Origin: Streptomyces sp. cg36
GTDB lineage: Bacteria > Actinomycetota > Actinomycetes > Streptomycetales > Streptomycetaceae
Direction of reading: 5' to 3'
Length of the DNA: 64,000 nucleotides
Assembly (NCBI RefSeq): GCF_041080675.1
Contig: NZ_CP163520.1
Location: 6,167,501-6,231,500 of the forward strand
The notes under the pieces are model-generated. The model worked only from the letters and a program-made list of their open reading frames with translations, had not been told where the DNA came from and ran no database searches. Of the stretch, positions 58,021 through 64,000 are shown piece after piece (position 1 is the first letter of the stretch; every line of letters begins with the position of its first letter). The position numbers were made by a program, and so were the translations under genes.

Positions 58021-58151
58021 CCGAATACTCCCTAACCAGCGCTTGTCAGGAGCACGGCGGCGCTGCATTGTGCTGCCGCCATCCCTGGCCGCGCCTCACG
58101 GGGTCCCCCCACGCCACCCGGGCCCCTCGATTCCCCTCGGGAGGAAAAGAA

Positions 58152-59057
58152 GTGAGGATCGAGCGCACCACCCCCACCCGCCGCGGCGGTCTCGCGAGAC
58201 GCACCAAGGCAGTCGCCGTCACCACCGGCTTCCTGGCCGCCGCCGCCCTCGCGGTCCCCACCGCCACCGCCAGCCCGCACCAGGTGTTCAGCGCCCACCA
58301 GCTCTCCGCCGCGGGCGACGCCGTGCTCGGCGCCGACGTCGCGGGCACCGCCTGGCACGTCGACCCCGCCGACCACACGCTGGTCGTGACCGCCGACTCC
58401 GGCGTCACCCAGTCGGACATCGCCAGGATCAAGCGGCAGGCGGGCGCCAACGCGTCCGCGATACGCGTCGAACGGACCACCGGGAAGATCAGCAAGCTGC
58501 TCGCGGGCGGAGACGCCATCTACGCGCCGAGCTGGCGCTGCTCCCTGGGCTTCAACGTCCGCAAGGGCAGCACCTACTACTTCCTGACCGCCGGCCACTG
58601 CACCGAGGGCTACCCGAACTACTACACGAGCTCCTCGCACTCGACCTCCATCGGCCCCACGGTCGGCACCAGCTTCCCGGGCAACGACTACGGCCTGGTG
58701 CAGTACACCAACACCTCGCTCGCCCACCCCGGCACGGTCGGCAGCCAGGACATCACCTCGGCCGCCAACCCCACGGTCGGCCAGACCGTCACCCGGCGCG
58801 GCTCCACCACCGGCATCCACAGCGGCCGGGTCACCGCGCTCAACGCCACCGTCAACTACGGCGGCGGCGACGTCGTGTACGGGCTCATCCAGACCACGGT
58901 CTGCGCCGAGCCCGGCGACTCCGGCGGCCCGCTCTACGCCGGCTCCACCGCCCTCGGCCTCACCTCCGGCGGCAGCGGCAACTGCTCCTCGGGCGGCACC
59001 ACGTTCTTCCAGCCCGTCGTCGAGGCCCTCAACGCCTATGGCGTGAGCGTCTACTGA
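58152..59057 (+). CDS. Secreted S1 family serine protease, streptogrisin-like pro-enzyme
   Basis: 301-aa pre-pro-protein. The signal peptide (about residues 1-40: [26 protein letters not shown]) is followed by a pro-region (about 41-115), then the mature chymotrypsin-fold domain starting near [14 protein letters not shown]. The catalytic triad is visible: His in LTAGHC, Asp in [11 protein letters not shown], Ser in [12 protein letters not shown]. Two disulfide pairs are indicated by Cys in SWRCS/GHC and in TVCAE/GNCSS. GTG 58152 has GGGAGGAA 6-8 nt upstream. The length matches streptogrisin B/D precursors. It ends at a strong terminator. Confidence 0.92.
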
Positions 59058-59107: not shown

Positions 59108-59201
59108 TCCCCGCGGCCCCGGCGGGGCCGACTGGACGTGATACGCCTTTTTGGGAGGATGTCCAAGGCGGAGAGGGCGAGCGGACACACGGGGTGAGTC
59201 A

Positions 59202-59681
59202 GTGAAACGCATCGGAGTGACCGGTCACCGAGACATCCCCTCCGAGGCGTTGGACGACATCCGCTCCGGGCTGCGGGCCCTGCTGTGCGGCCACGACGGC
59301 TCACTGGAGGCGCTCTCCAGCCTGGCGGCCGGCGCCGACCAGCTGTTCGCCGCGATCGCCCTGGAGTGCGGCGCCTCGCTGACCGTGGTCATCCCCAGCG
59401 GGGACTACGAGAAGGGCTTCGCCGACCCCGCCGAACTGGCCCGCTACCAGGGCCTGAAGCGGCGGGCCAGCCAGGAGGTGCGGATGGACTTCCCGCACTC
59501 CACGGACGAGGCGTACTACGCGGCCGGCGCCTACATCGCGGACAACTGCGACCGGCTGGTGGCCGTCTGGGACGGCCAGCCCGCGCGGGGTCTCGGCGGC
59601 ACCGGCGACATCGTCGCGTACGCCCGCAGCCTGGGGAAGACGGTCACCGTGGTGTGGCGGGACGGGGTGCGCCGCCGGTGA
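59202..59681 (+). CDS. SLOG-like nucleotide-binding protein
   Basis: 159-aa compact Rossmann-like protein. The N-terminus KRIGVTGHRDIPSEALDDI carries a GHR motif; SSLAAGADQLFAAIALECGASLTVVIP follows, and the C-terminal half has ADNCDRLVAVWDGQPARGLGGTGDIVAYARSLGKTVTVVW. This resembles SLOG proteins, a DprA/LOG-related group predicted to make or sense nucleotide ligands in conflict systems. GTG 59202 begins the Rossmann strand directly; a GGTGAG-type SD precedes it. It faces a four-helix SLATT/DUF4231 protein gene, with only 6 bp between the stops. Function as a ligand-generating partner is inferred from known SLOG-SLATT associations. Confidence 0.75.
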   Translation: MKRIGVTGHRDIPSEALDDIRSGLRALLCGHDGSLEALSSLAAGADQLFAAIALECGASLTVVIPSGDYEKGFADPAELARYQGLKRRASQEVRMDFPHSTDEAYYAAGAYIADNCDRLVAVWDGQPARGLGGTGDIVAYARSLGKTVTVVWRDGVRRR

Positions 59682-59687
59682 CGGCGG

Positions 59688-60629
59688 TCAACTGCGGAGC
59701 CGGGCCAGCCAGTCGGTGTGCTGGGGCGACACCACCCGTTCGGTCTCGTAGACCGCGCCGGCCCACTCGCGCTCGCTGACCGAGCTCTCCATCGCCACGT
59801 GCATCTCCATCAGGTCCTGCTCCACCAGCGAGTGGGCCGAGATCAGCGGCTGGTGGCGGCGGATCTCGCTCCACGCCAGACAGGCCGCGGCGGCCGCCGA
59901 GAGCAGCCCCGCCACTTTGACCCCCTGCGCCGCCCCGAACATGTGCAGCGTCGCGAAGAGCAACGCGAGAACGGTGAGCAGGGTGATCGCCGAGGTCCAC
60001 AGCGCGGTCGCCCGCCGGGACGCCTCCTGGCGGCGCCGGTACCAGTTGCGCTGCTCGATAAGACGGTCCCGCACGTACGTCTCCTTGCGTACGGTGAACG
60101 CCTTGGCCCGTAACTCGCGCATCGGCGCGGTGATGAGGGGCGCCCCCGACAGCGGTGACGTGCCCCCTTCGCGCGGGTCCTGCCAGCCGACCTTGCGCAG
60201 CTCCCGCAGCCCTTCCTCCAGACGGAGGGTGAACAATTCTTCGGGATCCGGTGAGTGGGCGTCAAACGGAGCACCGTGGACCGCGTACCGCCAGCACATG
60301 GATTTGATGAACTCCGCGGCCGAACGGTTCAGTTGCCAATGCGATTTCGCGTGCCCGCGGGCGGCGCGGAAGCTCACCGCGAGCACCCCCGCGTACGCCA
60401 GTGCGCTGAGCGCGCTCGTCAGCTGGAAGTCACCACCGAGCGTCATCTTCCACGGCAGGGCCGCCAGCGCCGCCCCCACCACGAGCAGGCACAACTGCCA
60501 GCGGGTGACGTTCACCGCGGCCCGCTGGCGCCCTATCGCGAGTGAGTCCGCGTGATGGAAGAGACCCGGCAGGTCGGCGTTGCGGAAGACCATGCTTTGC
60601 AGAGGACCGGGAATCGCCGTCACATCCAC
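59688..60629 (-). CDS. SLATT-type membrane protein (DUF4231-like)
   Basis: 313-aa protein with two pairs of transmembrane helices: about 45-60 and 68-88, then about 209-230 and 235-253, joined by a basic/helical cytosolic region. After each pair comes a charged helix; the C-terminus SLVEQDLMEMHVAMESSVSEREWAGAVYETERVVSPQHTDWL is the conserved SLATT ending. SLATT proteins are predicted pore-forming effectors activated by nucleotide signals. The start is GTG 60629 without a clear SD; ATG 60593 is the alternative. It is divergent from fxsA and convergent with the SLOG gene. Confidence 0.8.
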   Translation of the reverse strand: MDVTAIPGPLQSMVFRNADLPGLFHHADSLAIGRQRAAVNVTRWQLCLLVVGAALAALPWKMTLGGDFQLTSALSALAYAGVLAVSFRAARGHAKSHWQLNRSAAEFIKSMCWRYAVHGAPFDAHSPDPEELFTLRLEEGLRELRKVGWQDPREGGTSPLSGAPLITAPMRELRAKAFTVRKETYVRDRLIEQRNWYRRRQEASRRATALWTSAITLLTVLALLFATLHMFGAAQGVKVAGLLSAAAAACLAWSEIRRHQPLISAHSLVEQDLMEMHVAMESSVSEREWAGAVYETERVVSPQHTDWLARLRS

Positions 60630-60663: not shown

Positions 60664-60760
60664 GGAACGTCTCGTTCCGTACACCTTCCGCCATTGCTGG
60701 GCCACCTGTTCACGGCAACTGGTCGTGCTCAGTTGCCAACAGTGGCCAAGAGAGTAAAGT
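60664..60760 (+). promoter_or_regulatory. fxsA promoter with two perfect dyads
   Basis: The divergent space 60630-60836 has GGAACG-TCT-CGTTCC (60664-60678) and GGCAACTG-8-CAGTTGCC (60714-60737), both perfect. The second overlaps a -35 TTGCCA (60733-60738) that is 16 bp from TAAAGT (60755-60760), so a repressor there would block the fxsA promoter. Regulators are not identified. Confidence 0.6.
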
Positions 60761-60836: not shown

Positions 60837-61004
60837 GTGAAGACCTCTGTGAATTCTCTCTCCTTCGCCCCTGCGAAGAAGAGCCGTGTGCCCCTGGCCG
60901 AGATCGACGTCCGCGGCGCCGACGCCGCCCAGAAGCTCGGCCGCGTGCTGCCCTCGTCAATCGGCCGCCCCGCGCAGGCGTCGACCTTCAACTCCGCTCT
61001 CTAA
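60837..61004 (+). CDS. fxsA: FxSxx-COOH precursor peptide
   Basis: 55-aa precursor of a ribosomally made, modified peptide. It ends T-F-N-S-A-L, so Phe51-x-Ser53-x-x-COOH as the family name requires. The remainder is a leader with SLSFAPAKKSRVPLAEIDVRG. GTG 60837 is preferred: AAGGA at 60827-60831 is 5 nt upstream and the length fits; an in-frame ATG at 60786 lacks support. The FxsB radical SAM enzyme gene follows after 28 bp. Known FxsB-type enzymes join the Phe ring to the residue two places on (cyclophane); here Phe51 to Ser53 is the predicted crosslink. Confidence 0.9.
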   Translation: MKTSVNSLSFAPAKKSRVPLAEIDVRGADAAQKLGRVLPSSIGRPAQASTFNSAL

Positions 61005-61032
61005 CCCTGTCGGAGAGCTCTAGACTGGCGGA

Positions 61033-63270
61033 ATGACTGGACCCGTGGTCCCATTCCGCGAGATCGTTCTCAAGGTTCACAGCAGATGCGATCTTGCCTG
61101 TGATCACTGTTATATCTACGAAGCCCCTGATCAGAGTTGGCGCACCCGCCCCAAGGCAATCTCTGACGAGGCGATTTCCCGGACGGCGCGGCGACTGGCC
61201 GAGCACGCCGGGAGACACGTACTGCCCTCCGTGTCAGTGATCCTGCACGGAGGGGAGCCGCTGCTGGCGGGCCCCGCCCGGCTGCGCCGGGTGTGCGAGG
61301 AGCTGACCGCCGCCCTCGACGGCGTCGCGGAACTCGATCTCCGTGTACACACCAATGGGATCCAGCTCAGCCCCCGCTACCTCGACCTCTTCGACGAGTT
61401 CGGGCTCAAGGTCGGCATCTCCCTCGACGGAGACCGCGCGGCCAACGACCGCCACCGCCGCTTCGCCGACGGCCGCACCAGCCATCCGCTGGTCCTGCGC
61501 GCGATCGACCTGCTCCAGCAGGACCGTTACCGCCACCTCTTCCTCGGCCTGCTCTGCACCATCGACGTCGCCAACGACCCGGTCGCCGTGCACGACGCGC
61601 TGATCGCCCTGGACCCGCCGCGCATCGACTACCTGCTGCCGCACGCCACCTGGGACGCGCCCCCGCCCCGCCCGCGCGGCTCCCGGACGGAGTACGCCGA
61701 GTGGATCCTGGCGGCCTTCGACCGGTGGGAGGAACAGGGGCGCCCCGTTCCGGTCCGGCTGTTCGAGTCCGTACTGTCGACGTTGAACGGCGGCCCCAGC
61801 CTCACCGAGTCCCTGGGCCTGGCCCCCACCGACCTGGTGGTGGTGGAGACCGACGGCACGCTGGAGCAGGTCGACTCCCTCAAGAGCGCCTACGACGGCG
61901 CCGCAGCCACCGGCTTCGACGTCTTCCGGCACTCCTTCGACGACGTCGCCGCCCACCCCGGCGTCCGGGTGCGCCAGCTGGGGCTCGCGGGCGTGGGCCC
62001 CGAGTGCCGCTCCTGCCCGGTGGTCCGCTCCTGCGGCGGCGGGCTCTACACCCACCGCTACCGCTCGTCCCGCGAGGCCGAGGGCCGGGACGCCTTCGAG
62101 GGCCCCTCGGTCTACTGCGACGACCTGGCCGCCCTGGTGCGGGGCGTCGAGGCCCGCACGGCCGCCCGGAGCGTCCCGGAGGCCGTCACCGACCCCGGCG
62201 AACTCGTGGCGGCCCAGCACGAGCTGACCCGCACCCTGCTCGCCCGGCTGCACGCCGATCTGGCCGGGCGCGGCGGCCCCGAGTGGGAGACCACCTGGCG
62301 GCTCACCGCGCTGGCCGACGGTCCGGCCCTGGACGAGGTGCTGGCCCAGCCGTACGCCCGGAGCTGGCTGCTCACCACGCTGGAGGCGCTGCGCGAGGGG
62401 CGGCCCGACGCCCTGGCCCACGCCCACCGGCTGGCGGCCTACACGGCCGCCGCCGCCGTGCGCGGCCGGCTCGACCTGCCGGTCACCGTTCCGTACACCG
62501 ACGGCCGGCTGTGGCTGCCCACCCTCGGCGAACTGCGCGTCGGGGCCCCGGGGGAGTCCGGCCGGATCGAGGTGATCGCGGCCGAGAAGGGGTTTCGCGC
62601 CGGACGTGAGGGGTTCGAGGTTGAGGTGGAGTGCCCGCGCGAGCCGTGCGGCGACTGGCTCCCGGTGCGCGGACTCGGCCGGGACGGGGCGCCCGATCCG
62701 GCCCTGGACGACCTGGACCCGTACCGCGACTGCTTCGGGCGGCCGGTCAGCGCGCGGCTGGGGCTCGCCGCGGCCGACGAGTGGAGCGGGCGGCTCGGCG
62801 CGGCCTGGGGGCTGCTCTCGGCCGCCGCGCCCGCTCACGCCGCTGCCGCGGCCACCGCGCTGACCACGCTCACCCCGCTGGCAGACGGCGGCGAACCGGC
62901 CGTGGGGCGGCACGCCTACGGGGCGCTCGGGGTGCCGGTGGGGCTCACGGGGGAGGCGTTGGCGCTGGGGCTGCTGCGCGGTTCGCGCCGGGCCGCCTTC
63001 CGCGCACTCCTCGACGTCGCGGATCTGTACGCCTTGGACGGCGCCTGGCAGCATGCCGTCGACTGGCGCGCGGAGCCGGTGGAGATCTCCGTCGCGCTGG
63101 CCGAAACGCATGAGCGGGTGGCGGTCGCCGCCTACGACAGGAGTGCGCGCACCCTGGCGGAGACCCGGCGCTCGCTGGAAGCTCTTGAGGAGGCGGCCGA
63201 ACTCACCGTCAGCGGGAAGGCCCTGCTCGCCGCCGTCGTGCTGGAGTGGGAAGAGGCAGCCCGTGGATGA
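61033..63270 (+). CDS. fxsB: FxsB-family radical SAM/SPASM peptide maturase with C-terminal extension
   Basis: 745-aa protein. The radical SAM core has the 4Fe-4S Cys motif at C19, C23 and C26 (C-x3-C-x2-C in SRCDLACDHCYIYE), GGEP at 73-76 and the SDG-like GISLDGD. SPASM-type Cys are at 325, 328, 334 and 362. The second half (about 375-745) is an extension found in many FxsB proteins that normally carries an HExxH hydroxylase motif; no HExxH is present here, and the corresponding place reads ALALGLLRGSRRAAFRALLDVADLY, so that half is probably inactive. It would modify FxsA. ATG 61033 has only a weak SD. The stop overlaps the next gene by 8 nt. Confidence 0.9.
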   Translation: MTGPVVPFREIVLKVHSRCDLACDHCYIYEAPDQSWRTRPKAISDEAISRTARRLAEHAGRHVLPSVSVILHGGEPLLAGPARLRRVCEELTAALDGVAELDLRVHTNGIQLSPRYLDLFDEFGLKVGISLDGDRAANDRHRRFADGRTSHPLVLRAIDLLQQDRYRHLFLGLLCTIDVANDPVAVHDALIALDPPRIDYLLPHATWDAPPPRPRGSRTEYAEWILAAFDRWEEQGRPVPVRLFESVLSTLNGGPSLTESLGLAPTDLVVVETDGTLEQVDSLKSAYDGAAATGFDVFRHSFDDVAAHPGVRVRQLGLAGVGPECRSCPVVRSCGGGLYTHRYRSSREAEGRDAFEGPSVYCDDLAALVRGVEARTAARSVPEAVTDPGELVAAQHELTRTLLARLHADLAGRGGPEWETTWRLTALADGPALDEVLAQPYARSWLLTTLEALREGRPDALAHAHRLAAYTAAAAVRGRLDLPVTVPYTDGRLWLPTLGELRVGAPGESGRIEVIAAEKGFRAGREGFEVEVECPREPCGDWLPVRGLGRDGAPDPALDDLDPYRDCFGRPVSARLGLAAADEWSGRLGAAWGLLSAAAPAHAAAAATALTTLTPLADGGEPAVGRHAYGALGVPVGLTGEALALGLLRGSRRAAFRALLDVADLYALDGAWQHAVDWRAEPVEISVALAETHERVAVAAYDRSARTLAETRRSLEALEEAAELTVSGKALLAAVVLEWEEAARG

Positions 63271-64000
63271 ACGAGCCGCAGCATCGCTGGAGAGCGCCTT
63301 ACTGGACGACCTGGTCGCCATGGGGGTGAGGGAGGGGGACACGCTGCTCGTGCACGCCTCGTTGAGTGGTCTGGGGCACGGCCCGCGCGTCCTGGGGCAG
63401 GCGCTGTGCGCGGCGGTCGGGGGGCGGCTCAAGGGCACCCTGGTGGTTCCCGCGTTCACCCCGGAGAACTCGCTGACCTCGTCCGCCCACCACCGCCGCG
63501 CCCGGCAGGCGCGGGACCCGGCCGCGTACCGGGAGTTCCGCCGCAGGATGCCGGCCTTCGACCCGGAGCACACCCCCAGCCAGGGAATGGGCCGGCTGGC
63601 GGAGTGGGTGCGCACCTCGGAGGGGGCGGTCCGCAGCGGCCATCCGCAGACCTCCTTCGCCGCCTGGGGCAGCCGTTCCCTGGAACTGATGGCGGAACAC
63701 GAACCGGATTGCCACCTGGGGGAGAGGTCGCCGCTCGCGGCGCTCTGCCGCAGCGATGCCAAGGTTCTCATGATCAATGTCCCATTCGCCGTGTGCAGCG
63801 CCTTTCACCTCGCGGAATACCGTTATTGCCGCAACCCGCCGAAGAAGCTGTACAGCTGTGTGGTGCGCGACGAAAGTGGACGCAGGGGATGGTTCCACTA
63901 TCCCGACGTGGATCTCGACGACAGCGACTTCGAGACGATCGGGGCGGACCTTCCGGAGGAAATGCGCATCAAGTGGCAGCTGGGACGGAGAACGGCCCGG
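63263..64000 (+). CDS. AAC(3)-family N-acetyltransferase, partial (runs off the window)
   Basis: 246 residues are visible; the 3' end is outside. Family motifs: LLVHASLSGLG, LVVPAFTPENS, GMGRLAEWVRTSEGAVRSGHPQTSFAAWG and LGERSPLAALC...VLMINVPF, characteristic of aminoglycoside 3-N-acetyltransferase folds. Next to an Fxs locus it could instead acetylate the peptide or be an immunity function; this is inference. GTG 63263 has AGAGG upstream and overlaps fxsB. Codon 13 is a TTA (63299-63301), rare in Streptomyces and read by the bldA tRNA. Codon use becomes AT-richer after about 63750 (Val GTT, Asn AAT, Tyr TAT), unlike the neighbours, which hints at transfer. Confidence 0.88.
   Translation, partial: MDERAAASLESALLDDLVAMGVREGDTLLVHASLSGLGHGPRVLGQALCAAVGGRLKGTLVVPAFTPENSLTSSAHHRRARQARDPAAYREFRRRMPAFDPEHTPSQGMGRLAEWVRTSEGAVRSGHPQTSFAAWGSRSLELMAEHEPDCHLGERSPLAALCRSDAKVLMINVPFAVCSAFHLAEYRYCRNPPKKLYSCVVRDESGRRGWFHYPDVDLDDSDFETIGADLPEEMRIKWQLGRRTAR

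Follow-up and report, generated by a model that had tools for sequence, protein, structure and literature searches.

An Fxs locus of Streptomyces sp. cg36 with a retained, very probably inactive hydroxylase extension on FxsB

Introduction

Kaur et al. 2020 (PMC7159879), in the portions of that article drawn on here, describe standalone FxSxx peptide systems with an AP-ATPase that carries a MinD/ParA-like domain, and suggest that the FxSxx peptide is a toxin or a signal. PMC12636437 reports on a radical SAM enzyme with a fused HExxH domain, which works as an alpha-ketoglutarate beta-hydroxylase on a cyclophane that has already been formed. Here, we report the Fxs locus at the end of a 64,000-nucleotide stretch of Streptomyces sp. 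cg36 (NCBI RefSeq assembly GCF_041080675.1, contig NZ_CP163520.1, forward-strand positions 6,167,501 to 6,231,500; this whole stretch is called the window), in which the precursor gene fxsA stands before fxsB and the FxsB enzyme bears a hydroxylase extension that is very probably catalytically dead. It is likely, in our judgement, that the locus makes a cyclophane peptide left unhydroxylated in cis, by an enzyme with a retained pseudo-hydroxylase, within a conflict-type locus. Among the literature matches listed, from a coverage that leaves most subscription journals outside, no paper was found on the inactivated FxsB form, nor one on SLOG or SLATT genes beside FxSxx loci.

Results

The metal site of the FxsB extension

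Family profiles confirm fxsA and fxsB at the places where an earlier note, made from the DNA letters, had put them, and likewise its assignment to the Fxs type (Table 1). The 55-residue frame belongs to TIGR04268, "FxSxx-COOH cyclophane-containing RiPP peptide" (34.5 bits against an NCBIfam cut-off of 28), with FNSAL as its C terminus, and the FxsB core belongs to TIGR04269 (572.1 bits, NCBIfam cut-off 370) with CxxxCxxC present. The predicted cyclophane presumably joins Phe51 and Ser53 of FxsA, a position that we take from family knowledge.

The extension, residues 382 to 739, belongs to NF040587 at 392.7 bits (NCBIfam cut-off 225) and is predicted to keep the fold of the alpha-ketoglutarate (aKG)-HExxH-type peptide beta-hydroxylases (TIGR04267); its score against TIGR04267 itself, 21.6 bits, is under the cut-off of 40. 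With phmmer we aligned FxsB to the PDB 22nu/22ob sequence; read by eye, the place of HEFQH is R649-G-S-R-R653 and the His of GTYAH is R695, and a 109-row alignment repeated the reading. The His-Glu pair that the earlier note reported missing is indeed absent in the alignment with HExxH-bearing FxsB proteins that it had proposed as a check, and the third conserved His, of which it made no claim, is lost as well. All three conserved His and the Glu being replaced, the extension does not have the metal site (HExxH plus third His) that characterizes TIGR04267. With these residues gone, a beta-hydroxylase domain could not hold iron in the usual way, and the extension is very probably catalytically dead. 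The loss of the motif is neither chance nor artefact, because it is seen in 72 of the 109 extension-bearing FxsB proteins that we fetched. The earlier note overstated its novelty, since exactly this form is already a named NCBIfam class, NF040587.

Table 1. Features of the Fxs locus and adjoining genes in the window
Feature	Window positions	Strand	Evidence and remarks
fxsA precursor, 55 aa, ends ...STFNSAL	60837..61004	+	GTG start 60837, stop 61002-61004; TIGR04268 34.5 bits
fxsB, 745 aa: radical SAM/SPASM core aa ~8-373, predicted pseudo-hydroxylase extension aa ~382-739	61033..63270	+	
CxxxCxxC (Cys19, 23, 26), radical SAM [4Fe-4S] motif, intact	61087..61110	+	invariant, 66-row alignment
HEFQH place, R649-G650-S651-R652-R653	62977..62991	+	aligned to 22nu/22ob and 108 relatives
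R695 where GTYAH has its His, the third conserved one; a presumed third metal ligand is gone	63115..63117	+	same two alignments
AAC(3)/FrbF-like acyltransferase, off window edge	63263..64000	+	GTG 63263; PF02522 199.5 bits
Double SLATT (SLATT_3 + SLATT_1) membrane protein, divergent from fxsA	59688..60629	-	PF18184 138.5, PF18181 121.6 bits
Predicted SLOG-fold protein, 160 aa, convergent with SLATT gene	59199..59681	+	GTG start; upstream TTG 59151 possible

Survey of extension-bearing FxsB proteins

We searched 394 genomes from the family of the host, which we take to be Streptomycetaceae, with NF040587; 323 have some match and 67 are over the cut-off. Neighbourhoods were then collected for 109 extension-bearing FxsB proteins of at least 600 amino acids, a length filter that truncated forms would escape: all 67 over the cut-off and 42 that scored lower, i.e., 41 from the top of the list and L007 (L-numbers denote genome stretches or loci). 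HExxH plus His is kept in 37 of the 109 and lost in 72, the lost form comprising 67/67 of those over the cut-off and 5/42 of those below. A set of named loci numbered 52, of which 50 have an FxsB frame (L175, with too short a frame, and L198, at a contig edge, were dropped), and it divides into 37 lost and 13 HExxH proteins; the survey and named sets are not independent, some strains being in both (e.g., L161 and G222:C10). The FxsB proteins of the named relatives are 86-91% identical to that of the window.

The window's clade, clade A, has 49 survey members, and in all 49 both the second His and the second x of the motif (x2) are Arg; the third His is Arg in 45, and the Glu has become Gly in 43 and Ala in 6. 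Seventy extension positions are at least 95% conserved in this clade. A second lost clade of 17 has Arg at the first His in 15 and at the second in 13. Three loci (L055, L176 and L177, the last of which looks like the same strain as L055) have a lost-form fxsB and a peptide frame with no match to fxsC, fxsT, SLATT or SLOG within the stretch, and are possibly orphan or decaying systems.

Descent and selection

Eleven HExxH proteins from Micromonosporaceae root the core-domain tree, which has 90 rows. In it the main lost group, of which 38 rows were used, forms a single clade, with a Shimodaira-Hasegawa-like approximate likelihood ratio (SH-aLRT) support of 95, and its sister is the Streptomycetaceae HExxH clade (97). 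Two further lost proteins, L074 and L080, fall inside the HExxH clade, and a third, L190, stands beside it on a long branch whose place is unsure. Forcing the main group, L074 and L080 into one clade was rejected by the approximately unbiased test (p-AU 0.0004; L190 and L119 omitted for their long branches), which was run on a quick tree and for a group chosen after the tree was viewed. There was one ancient loss plus later ones, L074 and L080 representing one or two of these. L074 (8027-10504) reads REFQR...YARL, with exactly the three conserved His turned into Arg and the surrounding residues kept, and the place of the motif in L080 reads HGFQL...YAEL. When the L074 motif was sought as a DNA pattern, EFQ-Arg(CGN)-VKLG, only 1 of 70 genomes in the genus of L074 had it.

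Purifying selection acts on the lost-form extension. All-pairs dN/dS medians are saturated (0.617 lost, 0.623 HExxH), and the figures given here are from close lost-form pairs only: lost proteins were compared in 53 disjoint pairs, and the 26 of these at dS 0.1-0.4 have an omega (dN/dS) of 0.16-0.60 in the extension and 0.06-0.33 in the core. Of the extension sites that are invariant among HExxH proteins, 40 of the 58 outside residues 640-700 retain their residue in half or more of clade A, and 11 of the 32 inside do so, which argues that the scaffold was kept and the active site remodelled.

Precursor peptides

For each locus, the best script-scored frame ending in F.S.. before fxsB was taken as the peptide; a few may be wrong, and none was found for 8 of 159 proteins. 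Such frames precede fxsB in 66 of the 70 main-clade lost survey loci, window included. In the HExxH survey loci Ala precedes the Phe in all 34 peptides found (of 37 loci), and the pair before Phe is AA in 31, whereas Ala is there in none of the 66 main-clade lost peptides, where the residue is Thr (50), Ile (8), Ser (4), Gly (2), Val (1) or Pro (1). The named lost loci, which are partly survey strains, have Thr or Ser in 36/36. At the later losses the pair is GA (L074), KG (L080) and SG (L190). The two types of loci differ in the residues that adjoin the predicted crosslink site, and for this reason the earlier note's suggestion of a product different from the type form gains support, of a comparative kind.

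Among 11 Micromonosporaceae HExxH peptides the residue before Phe is Pro in 6, Leu in 2, Ala in 2 and Arg in 1; being mostly Pro or Leu, it tells us that Ala at this place is not generally needed for a live hydroxylase. We leave as a lead that an encoded Thr or Ser before Phe replaces the enzymatic beta-hydroxyl: the 54 of 66 main-clade lost peptides with Thr or Ser fit it, while the 8 with Ile, the 4 others (Gly, Val or Pro) and the pairs at the later losses (GA, KG, SG) count against it.

Other FxsB loci in the genome

The same genome has two further FxsB loci. L007 encodes an FxsB with HEFQH intact (TIGR04267, 194.1 bits) and a peptide ending in AAFQSSL; L008 (5915-13955) encodes an FxsB of 412 amino acids that has no extension, an FxSxx-system TPR protein (NF040586) and a neighbour of 1153 amino acids. 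A fifth, weaker match in the genome reaches 30% over 179 amino acids (L005/L009). In 47 lost-type genomes (the clade A genomes G368 and G220 were dropped), 26 have a strong TIGR04267 match (at least 140 bits) elsewhere, be it in an FxsB or in another protein, and 20 have no TIGR04267 match besides their own lost FxsB, some assemblies being in many contigs. The window's own genome has one such match, that of L007.

Neighbouring genes

The range covered by the earlier note also takes in the start of the AAC(3)-like gene, which it did not mention. This gene overlaps fxsB by 8 bp and is complete in the whole genome at 271 amino acids (stretch L006, 6764-7579), where it is followed by FxsC (NF040588/TIGR04276, TIR_2), FxsT (NF040586; KGGVGR ATPase, TIR, NB-ARC and TPR) and an opposite-strand alpha/beta-hydrolase (L006:12975-14294, minus strand). 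FxsT is the sole PADLOC match (PDC-M28B, 81.9 bits).

The 59199-59681 protein has no match in Pfam, NCBIfam or PADLOC. Its AlphaFold2 model has a predicted local distance difference test score (pLDDT) of 94.8, and the best Foldseek match is YpsA (2nx2, E 9.2e-8), followed by DprA, ShosA and LOG; the VIA-align listing consists of Foldseek's own matches re-aligned. The model points to a SLOG fold, YpsA, DprA, ShosA and LOG being, as we take it, members that make up the SLOG superfamily. YpsA is termed a SLOG protein in the reference list of PMC7159879.

An SLOG homologue lies within 12 kb in 63 of 72 lost survey loci versus 0 of 37 HExxH loci, and in 34 of 37 lost versus 0 of 13 HExxH named loci; the search was made by phmmer with one sequence, and a diverged SLOG in the HExxH loci could escape it. 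By lost survey group the counts are 48/49 (clade A), 12/17 (second clade) and 3/6 (others). In the survey SLOG never occurs without a SLATT gene, and in HExxH loci the gap beside the SLATT gene is mostly filled by the hydrolase. Linkage to SLOG is missing from the later losses L074, L080 and L190. The linkage probably has one origin, and it may reflect lineage rather than cause, because these three losses have no SLOG and the main loss was a single event; since the loci share descent, Fisher p-values for the association of neighbours were not used as proof.

In clade A the SLATT gene is upstream and divergent within 1500 bp in 38 of 49 loci, downstream in 9, further upstream in 1 and missing in 1. 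It is not specific to the lost form, as 20 of 37 HExxH loci have a SLATT homologue downstream (61-119 bits to the window's); of the HExxH-locus SLATTs run against Pfam, that of L093 is a double SLATT and that of L103 is cut by the stretch end. In nine members of clade A (L040, L042, L044, L045, L046, L048, L141, L143 and L145) SLATT and SLOG lie downstream of fxsT. This was considered as a link that had survived a move, and rejected: the hydrolase there is upstream on the fxsB strand, an order that agrees with an fxs block turned round while its flanks stayed the same, and that gives the link no further support. The fxs block appears to be inverted in these nine between the SLOG-SLATT flank and the hydrolase flank.

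Two readings of the AAC(3)-like gene were set aside. As a mark of the lost form it was rejected, since 41 of the 72 lost survey loci and 30 of the 37 with HExxH have a homologue no more than 1500 bp from fxsB. A role in aminoglycoside resistance is unsupported, for the gene scores under all five listed NCBIfam AAC(3) cut-offs (best 130.6 versus 270), and its best solved relative, FrbF (3sma, E 2e-43), also counts against that role. The alpha/beta-hydrolase is not an HExxH-side counterpart of SLOG either: 69 of the 72 lost stretches have a homologue (at least 80 bits), as do 28 of the 37 HExxH stretches, near fxsT and mostly downstream on the opposite strand. The hydrolase is a candidate core Fxs component, perhaps a leader peptidase or an effector.

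Upstream of fxsA there is a promoter-like element, TTGCCA-16-TAAAGT (window 60733-60760), and next to it, in the SLATT-fxsA intergenic region, a near-direct repeat, TTGCCAA/TGGCCAA. A trypsin-like protease with an alpha-lytic protease prodomain is encoded at window 58068-59057 (plus strand).

Discussion

In the reading that we find likely, the radical SAM core of FxsB would, as in its family, crosslink Phe51 to Ser53 of FxsA to give a three-residue cyclophane (-2 Da). The second step, hydroxylation by the alpha-ketoglutarate/iron beta-hydroxylase domain, would be skipped in cis, the residues of the metal site being replaced in a domain whose fold is predicted. The dead domain would be under selection as a pseudo-enzyme, most likely binding or positioning FxsA or a partner, with arginines in the place of the former metal site. 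The product would feed a conflict-type module of SLOG, SLATT, FxsC (TIR-like), FxsT, the AAC(3)/FrbF-like acyltransferase and the alpha/beta-hydrolase. Since the dead half has been kept and the peptide that it serves has changed, the extension looks repurposed rather than rotting.

Several observations weigh against this picture. The first His of clade A is not conserved as Arg (Arg 24, Thr 11, Ser 11, Gly 3), Arg at the third His is found in 0 of 17 proteins of the second lost clade, and the 37 named lost proteins have Arg at the second His in 31, at x2 in 34 and at the third His in 32. The core evolves more slowly than the extension, so that the constraint on the latter is moderate, and in 4 of the 53 pairs the extension omega exceeds 1; all four are at dS above 0.6 with core omega raised too, which we take for saturation. 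Finally, the intact HExxH enzyme of L007 possibly leaves a way to hydroxylation in trans.

It is unlikely that the extension is a vestige, retained only for its fusion to the core and its part in folding or stability. The higher omega of the extension and the variation among clades around the old motif would fit a vestige, but Arg at two motif positions in 49/49 of clade A and the 70 conserved extension positions do not, and all 72 lost proteins are at least 600 amino acids long, though length was a filter of the survey and truncated forms would have been missed. Going beyond the pseudo-hydroxylase reading, the locus could belong to a distinct Fxs subtype, marked by the loss of the hydroxylase, in which the iron pocket was rebuilt with arginine to make a new binding site, Ala-Ala before Phe was lost in parallel, SLOG-SLATT was recruited and the pseudo-hydroxylase acts, as sensor or adaptor, in a membrane response gated by a nucleotide or a peptide; we regard this as quite unlikely. 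A related proposal, in our view very unlikely, would make the former iron pocket an arginine-lined site for an anionic ligand (the peptide carboxylate or a SLOG-linked nucleotide signal) and FxsB both sensor and maturase. Arg652 and Arg653 (49/49) and Arg695 (45/49) in clade A, the three His-to-Arg changes of L074 amid kept surroundings and the SLOG linkage in 63 of 72 lost survey loci are consistent with such a site; against it stand the second lost clade without Arg at the third place, the named lost proteins that deviate from Arg652/Arg653, the confinement of the L074 motif to 1 of 70 genomes and the later losses without SLOG. That hydroxylation persists, supplied in trans by L007, we hold to be most unlikely: L007 itself and the strong TIGR04267 matches elsewhere in 26 of 47 lost-type genomes would allow it, but 20 of the 47 have no other match and the precursor cores differ by type, with AA before Phe in one and ST, PI and others in the other.

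The single finding is ordinary, since the inactivated form is already catalogued. What merits the attention of specialists is the retained arginine-bearing pseudo-hydroxylase, together with the precursor change that is coupled to it and with the linkage to SLOG. We see here a natural comparison: within one enzyme family the hydroxylase domain is live in some members and dead in others, it was lost more than once, and the precursor changes alongside; the coexistence of two such loci in one genome makes the role of hydroxylation in Fxs peptides, and the residue that it hits, testable by comparison.

Comparison with known systems

Like the systems of Kaur et al. (PMC7159879), as described in the portions of the article drawn on, this locus combines an FxSxx peptide, a radical SAM/SPASM enzyme and an AP-ATPase/TPR protein with a ParA-like domain. 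Section 24 of that article differs from the window locus in describing a system built on a zincin-like metallopeptidase, with no mention of SLOG or SLATT there; in the article the two words occur in five places, on vWA/MoxR proteins, on GTPase systems and in a reference. ChlB (PDB 9gm3/9gmc) is a multiple cyclophane synthase, and the window precursor differs in being an FxSxx-COOH peptide with a C-terminal core. With NF040587, "radical SAM/SPASM protein FxsBH, inactivated beta-hydroxylase extension form", the window FxsB shares both the extension and the loss of HExxH; no feature was found that separates it from that model, and the neighbours and precursor changes lie outside the model. SjiH (PDB 22ob/22nu) and ChlH (8s5f) are HExxH hydroxylase domains fused to cyclophane synthases; compared with them, the window FxsB has R, G, R and R in place of the three conserved His and the Glu, and its active-site stretch is widely changed.

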